From: an uncultured Anaerolineales bacterium
Lineage (GTDB): Bacteria; Chloroflexota; Anaerolineae; Aggregatilineales; Aggregatilineaceae
DNA: 38,995 nt
Reading direction: 5' to 3'
Assembly: GCA_937135955.1 (NCBI GenBank)
Contig: CAKZOB010000070.1
Location: 1 to 38,995, forward strand
Under the pieces are notes generated by a model, which saw only the letters and a list, made by a program, of their open reading frames with translations, ran no database searches and was not told where the DNA came from. This document shows, one piece after another, positions 10,984-27,053 of the stretch (positions are counted from its first letter, which is position 1; the number at the start of each line of letters is the position of its first letter). The position numbers and the translations under genes were made by a program.

Positions 10984-12639
10984 ATGTTTACCCGCAAGCG
11001 TTATGCCGCTTTTTCATTGCTCATCGCCGTGGTGATGGCCCTCTCGATCGTGGCGGTGCCCGGCGGGGCGAAGGCCCAGGGCTTTCAGCCAATGTCCTAT
11101 TCCGCGCCGGACTGCAGTTACGGGGGCGAATTCTACAAGATCGAAGCGATCGACGAGCTGACCGTCAAGTTCACGCTGTGCTATCCAGACCCGGCCTTCC
11201 CCTCCAAGGTGGCTTTCTCCGCCTTCTCCATCAACAGCGCCGAGTACCTGGAAGCGACCGGCGGCGGCGGTGACCTGGTTGACAAGCCCATCGGCACCGG
11301 CCCGTATGTCCTGGAAGAGTGGAAGCGCGGCGACAGCCTGGTGCTCAAGCGCTACGACAACTACTGGGGCGAGCCAGCCAAGACCGAGCGCGTCGTCTTC
11401 CGCTGGAACTCCGAAGGCGCGGCCCGTCTGACCGAGCTGCAGGCGGGCACGGTGGACGGCATTGACAACCCCAGCCCGGACGACTACGAGAAGATTCGCA
11501 ACGATGCCAACCTGGTGCTCTATGATCGTCCTGGCACCAACATTTTCTACATCGGTTTCAACAACCGCTATCCGCCGCTGGACGACGTGCGCGTGCGTCA
11601 GGCCCTGGCCATGGCCATTGACCGGCAGCGCATCGTGGACAACTTCTATCCGGCGGGCACCATTGTGGCCACGCAGTTCATGCCGCCCACCATCTTCGGC
11701 TACACGCCCGAAGTGACGTGGTATGACTTCGACCCCGAAGCGGCACGCGCTCTGCTGGCCGAAGCGGGCTATCCGGATGGCTTCACCATGGATCTCTACT
11801 ACCGCGATGTGTTCCGCTCCTACCTGCCGGAGCCGGGGCGCGTGGCCGAGGACATTCAGGCTCAGCTCAAGGAGAACCTGAATGTGACGGTCAACATCAC
11901 CGTCATGGAATCTGGCGCGTTCATTGACGCGGCTGACCGTGGCGAATTGCCCGTGCACCTGCTGGGCTGGAACGCCGACTACCCGGACGCCACCAACTTC
12001 CTGGACTATCACTTTGGCGCGGGCGCGTCGGAGCAGTTCGGTGAGAAGTTCCCCGAAATCACCGAGCCACTGCAGAAGGCCGCCTCGATCGCCGATCCGG
12101 CGGAGCGTCTGGTGTACTACCGCCAGGCCAACCAGGCCATCAAGGACCTGGTGCCCATGATCCCGGTGGCGCACGGTGCCTCTGCGACTGCCTTCAAGGC
12201 CACTGTCGAGGGAGCGCACGCCAGCCCGCTGGGCAACGAATACTTCGCCGTGATGCAAATCCCCGGCCAGGACACGTTGGTGTGGATGCAGAACGCCGAG
12301 CCGATTGGCCTCTATCTGGCGGACGAGACCGACGGAGAATCGCTGCGCGCCGGCGAGCAAATCTTTGAGTCGCTGCTCTCCTTCGAAGTCGGCGGCACGA
12401 ATGTCGAGCCGGGTCTGGCCGAGCGCTATGAGGTCAACGACGACCTGACCGAGTGGACGTTCTACCTGCGGCCTGGCGTCACCTTCCACGATGGCTCATC
12501 GCTGGACGCCAACGATGTGGTGATGTCCTATGTCGTGCAGTGGGACGCGGCGCATCCGCTGCATGTCGGGCGCGATGGCAGCTTCACTTACTTCGCTGGC
12601 CTGTTCGGCGGTTTCCTCAACCCGCCTGCGTCCGAGTAA
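10984..12639 (+). CDS. ABC transporter substrate-binding protein, family 5, apparently circularly permuted
   Basis: The 551-residue exported protein has a signal peptide (1-32, ending GGAKAQ). Family-5 binding proteins (oligopeptide, nickel and other ligands) normally run N-lobe, then FHDGxxLxAxDV, then IEAVDDLTVKFTL, then PVGTGPYxxxEW, then the C-terminal part. Here the mature protein begins at the middle: EFYKIEAIDELTVKFTL at 49-65, KPIGTGPYVLEEWKRGDS at 101-118, RQALAMAIDRQRIVDNF near 205. It reaches the usual C-terminus near 425 (GNEYFAVMQ). Only then comes the usual N-terminal segment: DTLVWMQNAEPIGLYLADET at 430-449, PGLAERYEVNDDLTEWTFYL at 475-494, RPGVTFHDGSSLDANDV at 496-512. It stops at GLFGGFLNPPASE. 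All parts are present, in rotated order. No permease or ATPase gene is adjacent. A strong terminator follows. Confidence 0.9.
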   Translation: MFTRKRYAAFSLLIAVVMALSIVAVPGGAKAQGFQPMSYSAPDCSYGGEFYKIEAIDELTVKFTLCYPDPAFPSKVAFSAFSINSAEYLEATGGGGDLVDKPIGTGPYVLEEWKRGDSLVLKRYDNYWGEPAKTERVVFRWNSEGAARLTELQAGTVDGIDNPSPDDYEKIRNDANLVLYDRPGTNIFYIGFNNRYPPLDDVRVRQALAMAIDRQRIVDNFYPAGTIVATQFMPPTIFGYTPEVTWYDFDPEAARALLAEAGYPDGFTMDLYYRDVFRSYLPEPGRVAEDIQAQLKENLNVTVNITVMESGAFIDAADRGELPVHLLGWNADYPDATNFLDYHFGAGASEQFGEKFPEITEPLQKAASIADPAERLVYYRQANQAIKDLVPMIPVAHGASATAFKATVEGAHASPLGNEYFAVMQIPGQDTLVWMQNAEPIGLYLADETDGESLRAGEQIFESLLSFEVGGTNVEPGLAERYEVNDDLTEWTFYLRPGVTFHDGSSLDANDVVMSYVVQWDAAHPLHVGRDGSFTYFAGLFGGFLNPPASE

Positions 12640-17599: not shown

Positions 17600-18523
17600 A
17601 TGATGGACGCATCCCGCTTTCATGGTATGATCCCTCCCCTAGCGACGCCGATGCACGCAGACGGGTCGCTGAACCTGGCCGCAGTGCCCGCGCTGGTAGA
17701 ACATGTGCTGAGCGCTGGCGTGCATGGCATCTTCGCGCCGGGCAGTCAGGGCGAGGCTTACGCTCTGCACGCCGACGAACGCGCGGCAGTGCTCGACGCG
17801 GTATTGGCGGCAGTGAACGGGCGCGTGCCAGTCATTGCCGGAGCGGGCGCCATCGCCACCCGCGATGCCATCGCCTATGCACGCGCGGCAGAGCGGGCCG
17901 GCGCGGACGCCGTCGCCATCATCACGCCCTACTATATCAGCCCGACGCAGGGGGAACTCTACGCGCACTACGCCGACATCGCGGCGGCAGTGTCGCTGCC
18001 TATCTTCGCCTACTCCAACCCTGGGCGCACGGGCGGCGTGCGCATCGAGCCGGAGACACTGGCGCGCCTGGCTGCGGACATCCCACACTTCGTCGGAGTC
18101 AAGGAGTCCAGCGGCGACCTGACGGTCACTGCGGCGATGATTCGCGCCTGTCCGCCGGGTTTCCGGGTCTTCACTGGTCGTGATACGTTGATCTACGCCT
18201 CGCTGTGCTATGGGGCGGCGGGGGCCGTGGGCCTGACGATGAATGTCGCTCCGGCGTGGTCGGTAGCCCTCTATGACGCTTTTCGCGCTGGTGATCACGC
18301 GGGCGCGCGCGCCTGGCAGGAGCGCGTGACGGCTTTGCGCGAAGGGCTGGGGCGCTTCGGCTCGTACCCGGTGGGGGTCAAGGAAGCGCTGGCGATCATG
18401 GGCCTGCCCGCTGGCCCCGCGCGACGGCCCATCCTGCCCCTTGACGAGACACAGCGCGAGGCCCTGCGCGCGTTTCTGGTTGAGTGTGGTGTGCTCCAAG
18501 GGCACGAAATCGCTGCAGACTGA
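17600..18523 (+). CDS. DapA-family (dihydrodipicolinate synthase / N-acetylneuraminate lyase) aldolase
   Basis: The 307-residue TIM-barrel enzyme belongs to the class I aldolase family that forms a Schiff base with pyruvate or a related keto acid. The catalytic Lys is K168 in HFVGVKESSGDL and the conserved Tyr is Y138 in PIFAYSNPGRTG. The substrate-carboxylate loop is GSQGEAYAL (near 48) rather than the GTTGE of true DapA, so lysine biosynthesis is not assured; a keto-deoxy sugar acid or other aldol substrate is equally likely. A second ATG one codon downstream could be used. TGAGGCG precedes it. The MetE-like gene starts 16 bases after its stop, suggesting an operon. Confidence 0.88.
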   Translation: MMDASRFHGMIPPLATPMHADGSLNLAAVPALVEHVLSAGVHGIFAPGSQGEAYALHADERAAVLDAVLAAVNGRVPVIAGAGAIATRDAIAYARAAERAGADAVAIITPYYISPTQGELYAHYADIAAAVSLPIFAYSNPGRTGGVRIEPETLARLAADIPHFVGVKESSGDLTVTAAMIRACPPGFRVFTGRDTLIYASLCYGAAGAVGLTMNVAPAWSVALYDAFRAGDHAGARAWQERVTALREGLGRFGSYPVGVKEALAIMGLPAGPARRPILPLDETQREALRAFLVECGVLQGHEIAAD

Positions 18524-18538
18524 CAAGGAGTATTTGCG

Positions 18539-19579
18539 ATGACCGACTGGCCGCGCCTGGGGACGACGCACCTGGGCAGCGTCCCCTATGCCGACCCGCA
18601 TAGCGTGAGCGAACGCCTGGCTGTCATACTCGACATTCCGGCCTGGGCACAGTTCTCGCGGCGTTCGTTCCGCGAGAACATGTACGTGCAATTCAGCGCC
18701 GCGCTGCCGCGCGTGATGATCGATCCCACTCGCGAGCGCATCTGGGTCAACACCACAGGCGACCTGACGCCCGACCTGGAAGCCTTCTACGCGCTCTATC
18801 TGGAAGACTACGTGGACGCCTTCGCCCTGACACCGGACTACGCGGCGGGCTTCTTCGCCATGCTGGACGTGCTCACTGTGATGCCGGGGACGTGGGCCAA
18901 GGGGCAGGTGACCGGGCCGGTCAGCCTGGGGCTGAGCGTGACCGATCAGGATCGCTACGCCATCCTCTACCACGACCTGCTGGGCGATGTGGTGGTGAAA
19001 ACGCTGGCCATGAACGCGCGCTGGCAGGTGCGGCAATTACGCGCTGTGCGTCCGCAAGTGCTCATCTTCGTAGACGAACCCTACCTGGCCTCGTTCGGCT
19101 CCGCCTATGTGAGCCTGGAGCGCGACGCTGTCATCGCCATGCTCAACGAAGTCTTCGCCGCCATTCACAGCGAAGGGGCGCTGGCCGGGGTACATTGTTG
19201 CGGCAACACCGACTGGTCATTGCTGCTCGATACGTCAGTAGACGTGCTCAACCTGGACGCTTTCGGCTATCTGGAGGCGCTGTCGCTCTATCCGGCAGAG
19301 TTACGCGCCTTCCTGGATCGCGGCGGCATCGTCGCCTGGGGTATCGTGCCCAACAACGAGACGATCCACAGTGTGAGCGCTGGCGATCTGGCCGAGCGCC
19401 TCTGGGACGGGCTGCGTCAGCTCAGCGAACGCGCCGCCGGTCGTGGCGTGTCCATTGCGGCGGAAGACTTGCTGGGGCGCTGCCTGCTTACTCCGAGCTG
19501 TGGCCTGGGGACAGCCTCGCCGGAGGTCGCCGATCAAGTCTACGTGACGTTGACCGCGCTCAAGGAAATCCTGCTGTGA
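18539..19579 (+). CDS. MetE-core / uroporphyrinogen-decarboxylase-superfamily zinc methyltransferase-like protein
   Basis: The 346-residue protein matches the length of free-standing core MetE proteins and has the general UROD/MetE barrel. Candidate zinc ligands are H219 and C221 in GVHCCGNTDW and C321 in LTPSCGLGTAS, matching the HxC...C pattern of cobalamin-independent methionine synthase; E180 lies in FVDEPYLASFG. The N-terminal MetE folate-like domain is absent, as in core MetE enzymes, some of which take methyl groups from corrinoid proteins. It starts with AAGGAG before ATG 18539 and follows the aldolase by 16 bases. Transfer of a methyl group to a thiol such as homocysteine is inferred; the donor and acceptor are unknown. 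Confidence 0.78.
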   Translation: MTDWPRLGTTHLGSVPYADPHSVSERLAVILDIPAWAQFSRRSFRENMYVQFSAALPRVMIDPTRERIWVNTTGDLTPDLEAFYALYLEDYVDAFALTPDYAAGFFAMLDVLTVMPGTWAKGQVTGPVSLGLSVTDQDRYAILYHDLLGDVVVKTLAMNARWQVRQLRAVRPQVLIFVDEPYLASFGSAYVSLERDAVIAMLNEVFAAIHSEGALAGVHCCGNTDWSLLLDTSVDVLNLDAFGYLEALSLYPAELRAFLDRGGIVAWGIVPNNETIHSVSAGDLAERLWDGLRQLSERAAGRGVSIAAEDLLGRCLLTPSCGLGTASPEVADQVYVTLTALKEILL

Positions 19580-24652: not shown

Positions 24653-25825
24653 ATGTCCGCTCCGGTTCCTGTTGTTGGGGCTTCGTCCAGGGTGCGCGAG
24701 GCATGGGCCGTCGCGCGCCTCTTTCTGCGCATCGGCACGACGGCCTTTGGCGGGCCAGCCGCTTCCATTGCCCTGATTCGCGACGAAGTGGTCGTGCGAC
24801 GGCGCTGGGTCAGCGAGCAGCAGTTCCTGGATATGGTGGGGGCGGCCAATCTGACCCCCGGCCCGACGGCCAGCAAGGTCGCCATGTACGTGGGACAGGC
24901 GCGCGCCGGTCTGCTGGGGCTGGTGTTGGCCGGACTGGGGTTCATGGCCCCGGCAGTGCTGGTGATGACGATCCTGGCCTGGGCCTATGCGCGCTACCAG
25001 ACCACGCCTACCGTTGGATGGCTGCTCTATGGCATTAAGCCGGTGATCGTCCCCCTGATTGCCCTGGCGCTGTGGGGACTAGGCCGCAAAGCGATCCACA
25101 ACCGCCTCACTGCCGCGGTGAGTGCAGGCGTTTTCGCGCTGACATTCGCCGACTTCAGCCCGCTCAGCCTGCTGATCGGGGGTGGTCTGCTAGTATGGGG
25201 GGTGCAGAACGCAGCCCAGGTAAGCGACTGGGTGCGCCGCCGGGGAATGTTACCCGTTCCCCTGATCGGGGCAGGGTTGCTGGCAGCCTCGACCTCAACT
25301 GGCTTCAGCCCGGCAGCGCTATTCCTGGTCTTCCTGAAAACGGGGGCCATTCTCTACGGATCGGGGTATGTGCTGTTCGCCTTTCTGCACGACGACCTGG
25401 TGAAGCGCTATGCCTGGCTGAGCGAGCAACAACTGGTAGATGCCATCGCCCTGGGCCAGATGATGCCCGGCCCGCTGTCCAGTTCGGCGGCGTTCATCGG
25501 CTATCTGCTTCATGGTGTGCCGGGCACTTTTCTGGCGATCGTCGGTATCTATCTACCCGCCTTCACCATCGTCGCGCTGAGCGCCAGCGCGATCGTGCGG
25601 TTGCGTCAGTCCCGTTGGGCGAGCAGCCTGCTGGACGGCGTCAATGCCGCTGCGCTCGGCCTGATCGGAGGGGTGCTATGGGACCTGGGGCGCGTGGCCT
25701 TCAGCGACGCCTACGCCGTGCTGCTGGGCGGGTTGGCCGCCGTGCTGCTGTGGCGCTTCAAGATCAGCGCGGCGGCGCTGGTGATCTTCGGCGCGGCGAT
25801 GGGTCTGCTGAGTACTCTGTTATGA
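24653..25825 (+). CDS. chrA: Chromate transporter (CHR family), first of a tandem pair
   Basis: The 390-residue membrane protein has the two-domain layout of long-chain CHR proteins. The first CHR half (about 15-195) has IGTTAFGGPAASIALIRDEV and NLTPGPTASKVAMYVG. The second half (about 215-390) has LKTGAILYGSGYVLFAFLHD and QMMPGPLSSSAAFIGYLLHG. About 10-12 membrane helices are apparent. Characterised members export chromate by proton antiport or sulfate-linked exchange, but many homologues are uncharacterised, so chromate specificity is an inference from family. Its start lies 6 bases after galK and its own ribosome binding site is poor. The following gene is a close paralogue. Confidence 0.88.
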   Translation: MSAPVPVVGASSRVREAWAVARLFLRIGTTAFGGPAASIALIRDEVVVRRRWVSEQQFLDMVGAANLTPGPTASKVAMYVGQARAGLLGLVLAGLGFMAPAVLVMTILAWAYARYQTTPTVGWLLYGIKPVIVPLIALALWGLGRKAIHNRLTAAVSAGVFALTFADFSPLSLLIGGGLLVWGVQNAAQVSDWVRRRGMLPVPLIGAGLLAASTSTGFSPAALFLVFLKTGAILYGSGYVLFAFLHDDLVKRYAWLSEQQLVDAIALGQMMPGPLSSSAAFIGYLLHGVPGTFLAIVGIYLPAFTIVALSASAIVRLRQSRWASSLLDGVNAAALGLIGGVLWDLGRVAFSDAYAVLLGGLAAVLLWRFKISAAALVIFGAAMGLLSTLL

Positions 25826-25886: not shown

Positions 25887-27053
25887 ATGTCTCTTCCGCA
25901 AACCGTGACGGATGCGCCCGCTCCCCGGCGGGGCGACTGGCGCGAGATCGCCCGCGTCTGGAGCGCCTTTCTGTATATCGGCGCGACAGCGTTCGGCGGC
26001 CCGGCGGCGCACATTGCCATCATGCGTCACGAACTGGTCGAGCGGCGCAAGTGGATTTCCGAACAACATTTCCTCGATCTGCTCGGCGCAACCAACCTGA
26101 TCCCCGGCCCCAACTCCAGCGAGATGACCATGCACATCGGCTACGTGCGGGCAGGGCTGGCCGGTTTGCTGGCGGGCGGGATCGCTTTCGTGCTGCCGGG
26201 GATGGTGATCACCCTGGCCCTGGCCTGGGTCTACACCCGTTATGGGACGACCCCTGCGGCGGGCTGGCTGTTGTATGGCATCAAACCGGTCATCATCCCC
26301 CTCATCGTCGCGGCCCTGTGGAGTCTGGGGCGCAAAGCTGTCACCGGCCCGTTGACGGCGCTGGTCGGAGGGCTGGCCCTGGCGTTGTACTTCCTGGGCG
26401 TCAATTTCGTGCTGGTGCTGGTGATGGGCGGCCTGGCGGTTGCTCTGGGTCGCCGGGGTGTGCGGGCGCGGGCGCTGTTCCCGCTGCCCCTGGCAGGCGT
26501 GGGACTGCCCGCTGCCGCCGTCACAGGCAGCTTCAACCTGTTGGCCCTGGCCTGGGCTTTTTTCAAGATCGGCGCGTTGCTCTATGGCTCCGGCTATGTG
26601 CTGTTCGCCTTCATGCAGGCGGAACTGGTCGAACGACACCGCTGGCTGAGCGAACAGGTGCTCATTGACGCCATCGCTGCAGGACAGATGACGCCCGGCC
26701 CGCTTTCTACTACGGCGACTTTTGTGGGCTATCTGCTGGCGGGCGTGCCGGGCGCGTTGATCGCTACCGGCGCTTTCTACCTGCCCGCGTTCGTGGTGGT
26801 CGCCCTCAGTAATCCTCTCATCCCGCGCATTCGCAATTCAAGGTCAGTCTCCAGCGTGCTGGACGGGGTCAATGTGGCAGCGCTGGGTCTGATGGCCGCA
26901 GTGACCTGGGAACTGGGGCGCGCGGCGTTTGTGGATGTCTATGCTATACTGCTAGGGGGATCGGCGGCGTTGCTGCTGTGGCGCTACCAGGTCAGCGCGG
27001 CTGCCCTGGTGATCCTGGGTGCAGCGGGCGGCCTGCTGAGCGCGCTGCTGTGA
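25887..27053 (+). CDS. chrA: Chromate transporter (CHR family), second of a tandem pair
   Basis: The 388-residue protein is a full-length paralogue of the preceding one. The first half carries IGATAFGGPAAHIAIMRHEL and NLIPGPNSSEMTMHIG, the second FKIGALLYGSGYVLFAFMQA and QMTPGPLSTTATFVGYLLAG. Shared segments such as GWLLYGIKPVI are nearly identical between the copies, so tandem duplication is likely. The first half has PGPNSSEM, the form usual in the family, while copy 1 has PGPTASKV. AGGAACC precedes the ATG, 61 bases after the first copy ends. The two copies may form a heterodimer or have diverged in substrate; neither is shown. Confidence 0.88.
   Translation: MSLPQTVTDAPAPRRGDWREIARVWSAFLYIGATAFGGPAAHIAIMRHELVERRKWISEQHFLDLLGATNLIPGPNSSEMTMHIGYVRAGLAGLLAGGIAFVLPGMVITLALAWVYTRYGTTPAAGWLLYGIKPVIIPLIVAALWSLGRKAVTGPLTALVGGLALALYFLGVNFVLVLVMGGLAVALGRRGVRARALFPLPLAGVGLPAAAVTGSFNLLALAWAFFKIGALLYGSGYVLFAFMQAELVERHRWLSEQVLIDAIAAGQMTPGPLSTTATFVGYLLAGVPGALIATGAFYLPAFVVVALSNPLIPRIRNSRSVSSVLDGVNVAALGLMAAVTWELGRAAFVDVYAILLGGSAALLLWRYQVSAAALVILGAAGGLLSALL

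Follow-up and report, generated by a model that had tools for sequence, protein, structure and literature searches.

A probable MesB-type core methionine synthase next to a DapA-family aldolase in a Chloroflexota genome with MetH

The second of two adjacent genes in the DNA shown above, mesB, very probably encodes a MesB-type core methionine synthase. We place the probability of this reading at about 0.83, a joint figure covering the MesB identity of the protein, a mechanism involving zinc, homocysteine and CoFeSP, a role beside MetH, and the status of the upstream aldolase gene as an independent neighbour. The window, meaning the whole stretch of 38,995 nucleotides that was analysed, corresponds to contig 70 in a draft genome of 4.28 Mb (93 contigs, 100% complete). 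An initial annotation had reported a DapA-like aldolase and a MetE-like open reading frame, both of which were found, at 17600-18523 and 18539-19579; their adjacency was borne out, while the gap between them measures 15 nt (18524-18538) and not the 16 bases given. The window protein is regarded as an added member of the known MesB family, and the aldolase-mesB pair as an ordinary one that does not point to a new pathway. An ambiguous pair can in this way receive a plain annotation, in which a member of the Chloroflexota has a MesB methionine synthase as well as MetH. The features discussed below are as follows.

17600..18523, forward strand: DapA-family pyruvate aldolase-like protein, 307 aa (open reading frame; PF00701; TIGR00674; conserved residues)
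18524..18538, forward strand: intergenic stretch of 15 nt with a Shine-Dalgarno-like AAGGAG 5' of the second ATG (sequence)
18539..19579, forward strand: mesB, core methionine synthase, 346 aa, proposed methyl-CoFeSP:homocysteine methyltransferase
19073..19081, forward strand: codons D179-E180-P181, DEP motif aligned with the DEP of MetE
19193..19201, forward strand: codons H219-C220-C221, HxC part of the predicted zinc site
19256..19258, forward strand: codon D240, probable fourth zinc ligand, at the position of Asp236 in the Dehalococcoides mccartyi enzyme
19499..19501, forward strand: codon C321, last cysteine ligand of the predicted zinc site

Identity and predicted active site of the window protein

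The core-MetE protein of D. mccartyi CBDB1 (cbdbA481) is 343 residues long, with zinc modelled on His215, Cys217, Asp236 and Cys312, and it is reported to be active with methylcobalamin and homocysteine, inactive with methyl-THF, and encoded in one operon with the genes for SAM synthetase and SAHase (Deobald 2020; PMC7005905). In a further study, the D. mccartyi family was designated MesB, with a membership cut-off of 130 bits (about 29% identity) to characterised MesB; it was found with the Wood-Ljungdahl pathway, its gene lying near SAM synthetase/SAHase genes, and Chloroflexales relatives were described that lack the zinc ligands and carry FSHG, YCDQ or YREQ in their place (Price 2021; PMC7857596). 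The latter study gives as accessions A0A0V8M4G6 (MesB), METE_METTM (MesA), Q8TUL3 (MesC) and Q6F6Z8 (MesD). D. mccartyi is reported to lack MetH and MTHFR (PMC7005905; PMC7857596). Within the literature collection that was searched, MesB as a methionine synthase with the Wood-Ljungdahl pathway gave only Price 2021 (PMC7857596) for the years from 2021 on, and Anaerolineae with the Wood-Ljungdahl pathway and methionine synthase gave, judging by titles, nothing on this enzyme.

As the MesB reference we used a protein from a 1.36-Mb single-contig Chloroflexota genome (G080), recognised by published features alone: when read from the first ATG it has 343 residues, with H215, C217, D236, C312 and W69, and in a sister genome with the same neighbourhood (G067) SAM synthetase and SAHase genes were detected nearby with Pfam. 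Against this Dehalococcoides-type protein the window protein reaches 246.7 bits (38.3% identity over 326 residues), and against two further proteins of the same Dehalococcoides-like genus 250.9 and 256.4 bits, with 38-40% identity to the three. It resembles the D. mccartyi enzyme in length (346 versus 343 residues), in its HCDC ligands, in the absence of a folate N-terminal domain and in its co-occurrence with the Wood-Ljungdahl pathway. The two cases differ in that the window's host has MetH, MTHFR and an AcsE-like pterin protein, and in that mesB lies beside a DapA-like aldolase gene here and near MetK and SAHase genes in D. mccartyi. A chance open reading frame can be discarded, since 16 of the 61 genomes of the order, the source genome included, hold a match to the MetE-like protein at 1e-80 or better.

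A maximum-likelihood tree was built from 68 rows, of which 65 differ from one another; in it a starred branch (98/94) separates the window protein and 50 other rows from 17 low-scoring homologues, with the Dehalococcoides-type proteins falling on the window's side. The window protein is placed among 19 rows, a starred group to which relatives from the same order belong, and it has a longer terminal branch than its closest relatives. The protein of a congeneric genome (G002), whose end is broken, was left out of alignments A1 and A2, the second of which comprises 36 of the best 80 relatives.

The protein is a single domain without the folate-binding N-terminal half of MetE, residues 1-346 matching the C-terminal half, and canonical MetE was ruled out on this basis, one domain of 346 aa taking the place of the tandem two-domain arrangement with its folate domain. 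General models recognise the family poorly: Pfam gave no match for the window protein, the NCBIfam methionine synthase model matched it weakly (23.1 bits against a cut-off of 258), and Meth_synt_2 was matched by one of 15 family members, at 0.0019. Profile alignment with hhalign gave a thin sequence match between the family and MetE (22% over 189 columns, probability 89, E 2.2e-6), with the DEP motif, the histidine and the cysteine aligned. The PF01717 loci L037-L040, intended as outgroups, were used in this MetE profile alignment; they are unmatched by the MesB profile and absent from the ligand survey described below.

Searches of the PDB sequences with phmmer, using the protein, and with hmmsearch, using a 15-row profile, found no relative, so that structure prediction was needed. 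The AlphaFold model (pLDDT 93.6, from a 37-row alignment) has as its top PDB structural matches MetE and MesD-type proteins at Z 21.8-25.2 (MetE up to 25.2), followed at Z 19.1-20.4 by UROD (up to 20.4) and a Methanosarcina mazei methyltransferase, which we take to be MtaA. These last matches would suit a UROD-type or MtaA-type member of the superfamily, a reading that is nonetheless barely credible: the MetE and MesD-type structures score higher, no URO-D match occurs at E 0.1 in any of the 15 family members, the MetE profile match aligns the key residues, and the MesB score is 246.7 bits, the published cut-off being 130. On the same evidence UROD membership was ruled out. The earlier label, MetE-core/UROD-like, is right as to the MetE core, and its second half applies to the fold (Z 20.4, against 25.2 for MetE) and not to the sequence; placement among UROD proteins, which had been named as a refuting outcome, did not come out.

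The zinc site of the window MesB most likely consists of H219, C221, D240 and C321, all of them invariant in the 15 aligned rows. The three residues singled out in the initial annotation (H219, C221 and C321) are all correct, and the probable fourth ligand, D240, itself invariant in 15 of 15 rows, had been missed. MetE shares the fold, the DEP motif and the pattern of the zinc site, with Glu as the fourth ligand where the window protein has Asp. The homocysteine-binding residues of MetE include Ser433 and Asp599. In the profile alignment D179 of the DEP motif aligns with the DEP of MetE; S14 is invariant (15/15), but it lies outside the part aligned to MetE, and its likeness to Ser433 is by motif alone. 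In the alignment with 36 relatives, the window protein deviates at 4 of the positions where the remaining rows show 90% conservation, a figure that ranges from 0 to 20 for the other 36 rows.

Distribution and link to the Wood-Ljungdahl pathway

The family profile matches 85 of 400 genomes of the phylum. No score lies between 216 and 274 bits, and this break separates 41 high-scoring genomes (270 bits or more) from 44 low-scoring ones. Acetyl-CoA synthase is present in 38 of the 41 high scorers versus 11 of the other 359 genomes, and in none of the 44 low scorers; Fisher's test for its association with high-scoring MesB gives 1e-39, with kinship ignored. Within the order, the enzyme occurs in 14 of 16 mesB carriers versus 12 of 45 other genomes, a weak match in G033 (9.9e-4) not being counted as a carrier. 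G009, a draft that is 89% complete, carries mesB without acetyl-CoA synthase or a strong CoFeSP match. Obtained from more Chloroflexota genomes than before, these results are in line with the reported association of MesB with the Wood-Ljungdahl pathway.

The ligand strings follow the same division. HCDC was read in all 14 relatives, in 78 of the 80 named loci (the exceptions being the broken G002 copy and a fragment at a contig end) and in all 29 of the high-scoring phylum loci L139-L167. Three high scorers have no detectable acetyl-CoA synthase, of which G427 and G214 keep HCDC and G441 reads QSDA. Among the low scorers, the ligands were read in 17 of the 44; HCDC is lacking in 15 of the 17 and present in two, which are without acetyl-CoA synthase. 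These two low scorers, the three high scorers just named and G009 sit less well with the overall pattern. The strings FSHG and YCDQ occur among them as published, and the Chloroflexales MesB-like proteins without ligands have thus probably been recovered in this group. Although these proteins are homologous to the window protein and come from the same phylum, the window protein and its genome have what the low scorers mostly or wholly lack, namely HCDC and acetyl-CoA synthase respectively.

Gene context was surveyed, with 7-kb flanks where the contig allows and at 100 bits or more, for the best 80 of 353 named relatives; the loci of the relatives and those of the named set overlap in part, the same genomes appearing under two labels. 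Wood-Ljungdahl-type genes lie near 26 of the best 80 loci, in Chloroflexota, Acidobacteriota, Auribacterota, Zixiibacteriota and LCP-89. CODH, acetyl-CoA synthase or CoFeSP genes are present at 15 of the 26, and the other 11 have only a CooC-type ATPase, an AcsE-like gene or RACo, where "CooC-type" is our presumptive label for a MinD-like P-loop family in Pfam. Near 27 other loci of the best 80, without overlap with the 26, lie genes for SAM synthetase (MetK), SAHase or MTAP-type proteins, and the remaining 27 have neither kind of partner nearby. The same Wood-Ljungdahl and SAM-cycle queries matched at none of 11 control loci around aldolase genes distant from mesB, and they gave no match inside the window, a point that speaks against the MesB reading. 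Taken with the MesB score, the HCDC ligands and the co-occurrence with acetyl-CoA synthase, this context bears out the suggestion in the initial annotation that core MetE proteins are linked to corrinoid methyl donors.

A separate observation concerns acetyl-CoA synthase, where inteins lie directly before A-cluster-type cysteines; this looks more novel than the mesB pair.

The neighbouring aldolase gene

The upstream gene product matches Pfam DHDPS (PF00701) at 1.4e-73 and barely passes the TIGR00674 equivalog model of NCBIfam (206.4 bits against a cut-off of 206.15), below which its orthologues in G001, G003, G004, G005, G009 and G015 fall. The GSQGE loop noted earlier is present at residues 48-52; among the 15 orthologues it reads GSQGE in 12 and GSQSE in three, and the GTTGE-type loop, which we take to be the motif of lysine-pathway DapA, is absent from them and present in the G019 protein L186. 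Three residues are kept in all 15 orthologues, K168, presumably the Schiff-base lysine, and Y138 and R143, to which we assign the catalytic roles known from DapA. At position 112, which we equate with the second tyrosine of the DapA catalytic triad (Tyr107 of E. coli), the window protein has Y and 12 of the 15 orthologues have F. None of the order's 61 genomes has a DapB C-terminal domain, which was detected in 11 of 14 controls, although a very divergent DapB might escape such a search. Likeness to the DapA superfamily therefore extends to the kept catalytic residues and the bare TIGR00674 pass, while the GSQ[GS]E loop, F112 in 12 of 15 orthologues and the missing DapB domain set the protein apart and make a lysine role unlikely; lysine-pathway DapA was rejected as an identity, the changed loop and the absence of DapB_C standing against the marginal equivalog score.

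Since the 15 nt between the aldolase stop and the mesB start hold an AAGGAG, the two genes are likely to be co-transcribed in the source genome. Across the 61 genomes of the order, aldolase orthologues (E 1e-60 or better) occur in 15, which all belong to the window's family and make up 15 of its 18 genomes. Within this family the aldolase is present in 6 of 7 mesB carriers versus 9 of 11 non-carriers (Fisher p = 1), and it lies near 3 of the best 80 related loci. On this pattern of co-occurrence we rejected the idea that aldolase and mesB form a two-gene system, and the proposal that the pairing might mark a new thiol-methylation route is not supported; a lack of co-occurrence with the aldolase had been named in advance as a refuting outcome, and this is what was observed.

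Aldolase and mesB adjoin each other in the source genome (G000), G002 and G005, and are separated by one hydrolase gene in G008; these four genomes represent three genera, with 60-71% identity between genera. In G004 the same ABC transporter and PEBP genes precede the aldolase gene and mesB is absent; the G015 aldolase gene lies between the PEBP and hydrolase genes, with mesB elsewhere beside CODH/ACS genes. The same type of alpha/beta hydrolase is found beside mesB in G008 and G009 and beside the aldolase gene in G008 and G015. In the free mesB tree the aldolase-adjacent genes are scattered, but a single clade stays acceptable (p-AU 0.119), so that one ancestral linkage could account for the four cases, which need not be independent. 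Their closeness is probably an inherited gene order, and the aldolase looks like a separate enzyme of the DapA type, part of the usual gene content of this bacterial family and a neighbour of mesB at the family level. It should no longer be read as a clue to a pathway.

It has also been considered that mesB of this family moved away from the Wood-Ljungdahl genes into a small operon shared with the aldolase gene and, in part of the family, with an alpha/beta hydrolase gene, forming a second, MetH-independent module for methionine synthesis or thiol methylation. In such an operon the product of the aldolase could be a keto-acid precursor, such as a 4-hydroxy-2-oxoacid leading toward homoserine and homocysteine, or the acceptor thiol for a MesB of changed specificity. 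We regard this operon reading as very unlikely.

Role in the host genome and alternative readings

Contig 47 of the host encodes CODH, acetyl-CoA synthase, CdhD, CdhE, RACo and MTHFR, with matches to the CdhD family (CoFeSP) at 9.2e-87 and 6.4e-35, and a pterin-binding protein on this contig is taken by its position to be AcsE. Contig 54 encodes a five-domain MetH of about 1,200 aa, made up of homocysteine, pterin, activation and two B12 domains, together with a protein in which a homocysteine methyltransferase is fused to MTHFR; no MetE-type protein (PF01717) was found in the genome. With MetH, MTHFR and the Wood-Ljungdahl genes present, the host is not without a standard methionine synthase, contrary to the setting suggested by the initial annotation, whose proposed check for metH and metE is thereby answered; production of methyl-THF and use of MetH are therefore possible in principle. 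The same combination is usual in the order, where 15 of the 16 mesB carriers have the MetH activation domain and all 16 have MTHFR.

Under the MesB reading, Zn2+ would be bound through H219, C221, D240 and C321 and would activate homocysteine as a zinc thiolate. The methyl donor would be a methylated corrinoid protein, most likely the CoFeSP encoded on contig 47 (CdhD/CdhE, also termed AcsD/AcsC), from whose CH3-Co(III) the methyl group would pass to homocysteine. Relative to methyl-THF, MesB would draw off the methyl group one step later, from the corrinoid protein, and beside a complete MetH it may provide a second, supplementary route to methionine and SAM. From homology, ligand residues, host pathway genes, co-occurrence and gene context, all of which were observed, we infer zinc binding, homocysteine as the substrate, CoFeSP as the donor and the co-transcription proposed above. 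The presence of MetH may render mesB redundant, and the fact that MesB usually stands alongside MetH in this order raises a modest physiological question, namely why both are kept.

The fate of the gene within the genus bears on this question. Of its five genomes two have mesB, intact in the source genome and broken in G002, where homology ends at about residue 285-286, before the last zinc ligand; G002 is a draft metagenome bin, and the break may stem from faulty assembly. No mesB was found in G001, G003 and G004, two of which have a completeness of 80% and 91%. For mesB, dN/dS calculated from the 285 codons in common with G002 is 0.026/0.278, or about 0.09, which clearly indicates purifying selection; the same comparison gives 0.026/0.497 for the aldolase and 0.019/0.332 for PEBP, the ratio for mesB being slightly higher. 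Relaxed constraint, suggested by a 300-codon value of 0.053/0.311 that included codons past the G002 break, was rejected, the effect being mostly gone over 285 codons. Patchy occurrence together with purifying selection leaves room for a dispensable role and does not demand one.

With these data two further readings can be weighed. In one, mesB is a remnant being lost in the genus since MetH supplies methionine, perhaps still made but of little importance. One intact copy among five genomes, a second that is broken and three genomes without a match are what such a loss would leave; yet the frame is open with all ligands and motifs kept, the constraint is little below that on the aldolase and PEBP, the broken copy comes from a draft bin, and two of the three genomes lacking mesB are incomplete. 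We consider this remnant reading a shade less probable even than the operon reading above. In the other, which is unlikely though less so than the remnant or the operon reading, the protein is a methyltransferase of the MesB fold with a shifted role, using another corrinoid donor or a thiol other than homocysteine, its substrate being supplied or used by the aldolase and sometimes by the alpha/beta hydrolase. The closeness of aldolase and mesB in four genomes of three genera, the recurrence of the hydrolase type beside either gene, and a MetH that makes a second homocysteine methylase dispensable all favour it. Against it stand the nearly equal frequency of the aldolase in family genomes with and without mesB, its rarity at the best related loci, the acceptability of one ancestral linkage for the paired cases, and the window protein itself, which keeps all ligands and departs at 4 positions conserved at 90% in the others.

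Inteins and an Apparent Fusion in Acetyl-CoA Synthase

In the genome to which the window belongs (G000) and in related Chloroflexota, the genes for the acetyl-CoA synthase (ACS) of the Wood-Ljungdahl pathway are split by inteins, which occur at two insertion sites.

L207:888-6299, minus strand: intein-bearing ACS of G000, on contig 47, outside the window (further loci: L208-L212 and L215)

Both sites lie immediately N-terminal to a cysteine of an apparent A-cluster motif, the first before Cys546 in CTLC and the second before Cys632 in CGC, with residue numbers following the intein-free protein of locus L024. An intein has been detected at the first site in G004 and at the second in G000, G002, and G244, while G003, G014, and G032 carry inteins at both, the second intein of G014 being cut by the contig end. 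Pfam searches of the G000 copy matched LAGLIDADG_3 at 45.6 bits, as well as Intein_splicing at 34.7 bits, slightly below the cut-off of 35.8. In one paper retrieved for inteins together with acetyl-CoA synthase, the relevant passages deal with GyrB and DnaE inteins.

A single open frame encodes both ACS and CdhD, the small subunit of CoFeSP, at L207 (888-6299, minus strand), L208, L209, L213, and L214, and appears to represent an ACS-CdhD fusion. This frame comprises 1803 aa in G000, intein included, and 1247 and 1227 aa in the intein-free versions of G022 and G028, respectively. In G032 (L212), CdhD is separate from ACS.

Proteins Encoded Beside CODH and mesB

Two further proteins are encoded in the related clusters, in the vicinity of the genes for CODH and for the core methionine synthase MesB.

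L024:10398-10799: protein with a heavy-metal-associated domain (counterparts at L021, L025-L028, and L031)
L172:4430-4903: its counterpart in G000
L024:7662-9053: protein of 463-465 aa upstream of mesB (also at L025, L027, and L028)

The first of these, with a length of 130-157 aa and a domain score slightly above the cut-off, is encoded directly 5' of the CODH gene in the listed clusters, often with mesB on its other side, and is possibly a metal chaperone serving the cluster. The gene for the 463-465-aa protein adjoins mesB, directly upstream, in four genomes from one family; its L024 copy had no match in Pfam or NCBIfam.

A mesB copy is also present in G002, a genome of the same genus.

L018:5491-6696: mesB copy of G002

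Its product is 94% identical (269/285) to the MesB of the window as far as residue 285, beyond which the sequence is unrelated and the last zinc ligand is absent; either the gene is truly truncated or the draft is misassembled at this point.

Lysine Synthesis in the Order

None of 61 genomes surveyed from this order yielded the DapB C-terminal domain, which was found in 11 of 14 control genomes, and lysine is therefore probably synthesized by another route in these organisms.

Other Genes in the Window

10984-12639: family-5 solute-binding protein
24653-25825 and 25887-27053: tandem pair of genes from the chromate-transporter family

The solute-binding protein matches its profile as two stretches, the main one placing profile positions 63 to 365 at residues 48-348. 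To the eye, the sequence past this stretch resembles the usual start of such proteins, and a circular permutation may thus be present. The chromate-transporter-family pair follows galT, a membrane-protein gene and a galactokinase gene, with the membrane protein showing a weak PMT_2 match.
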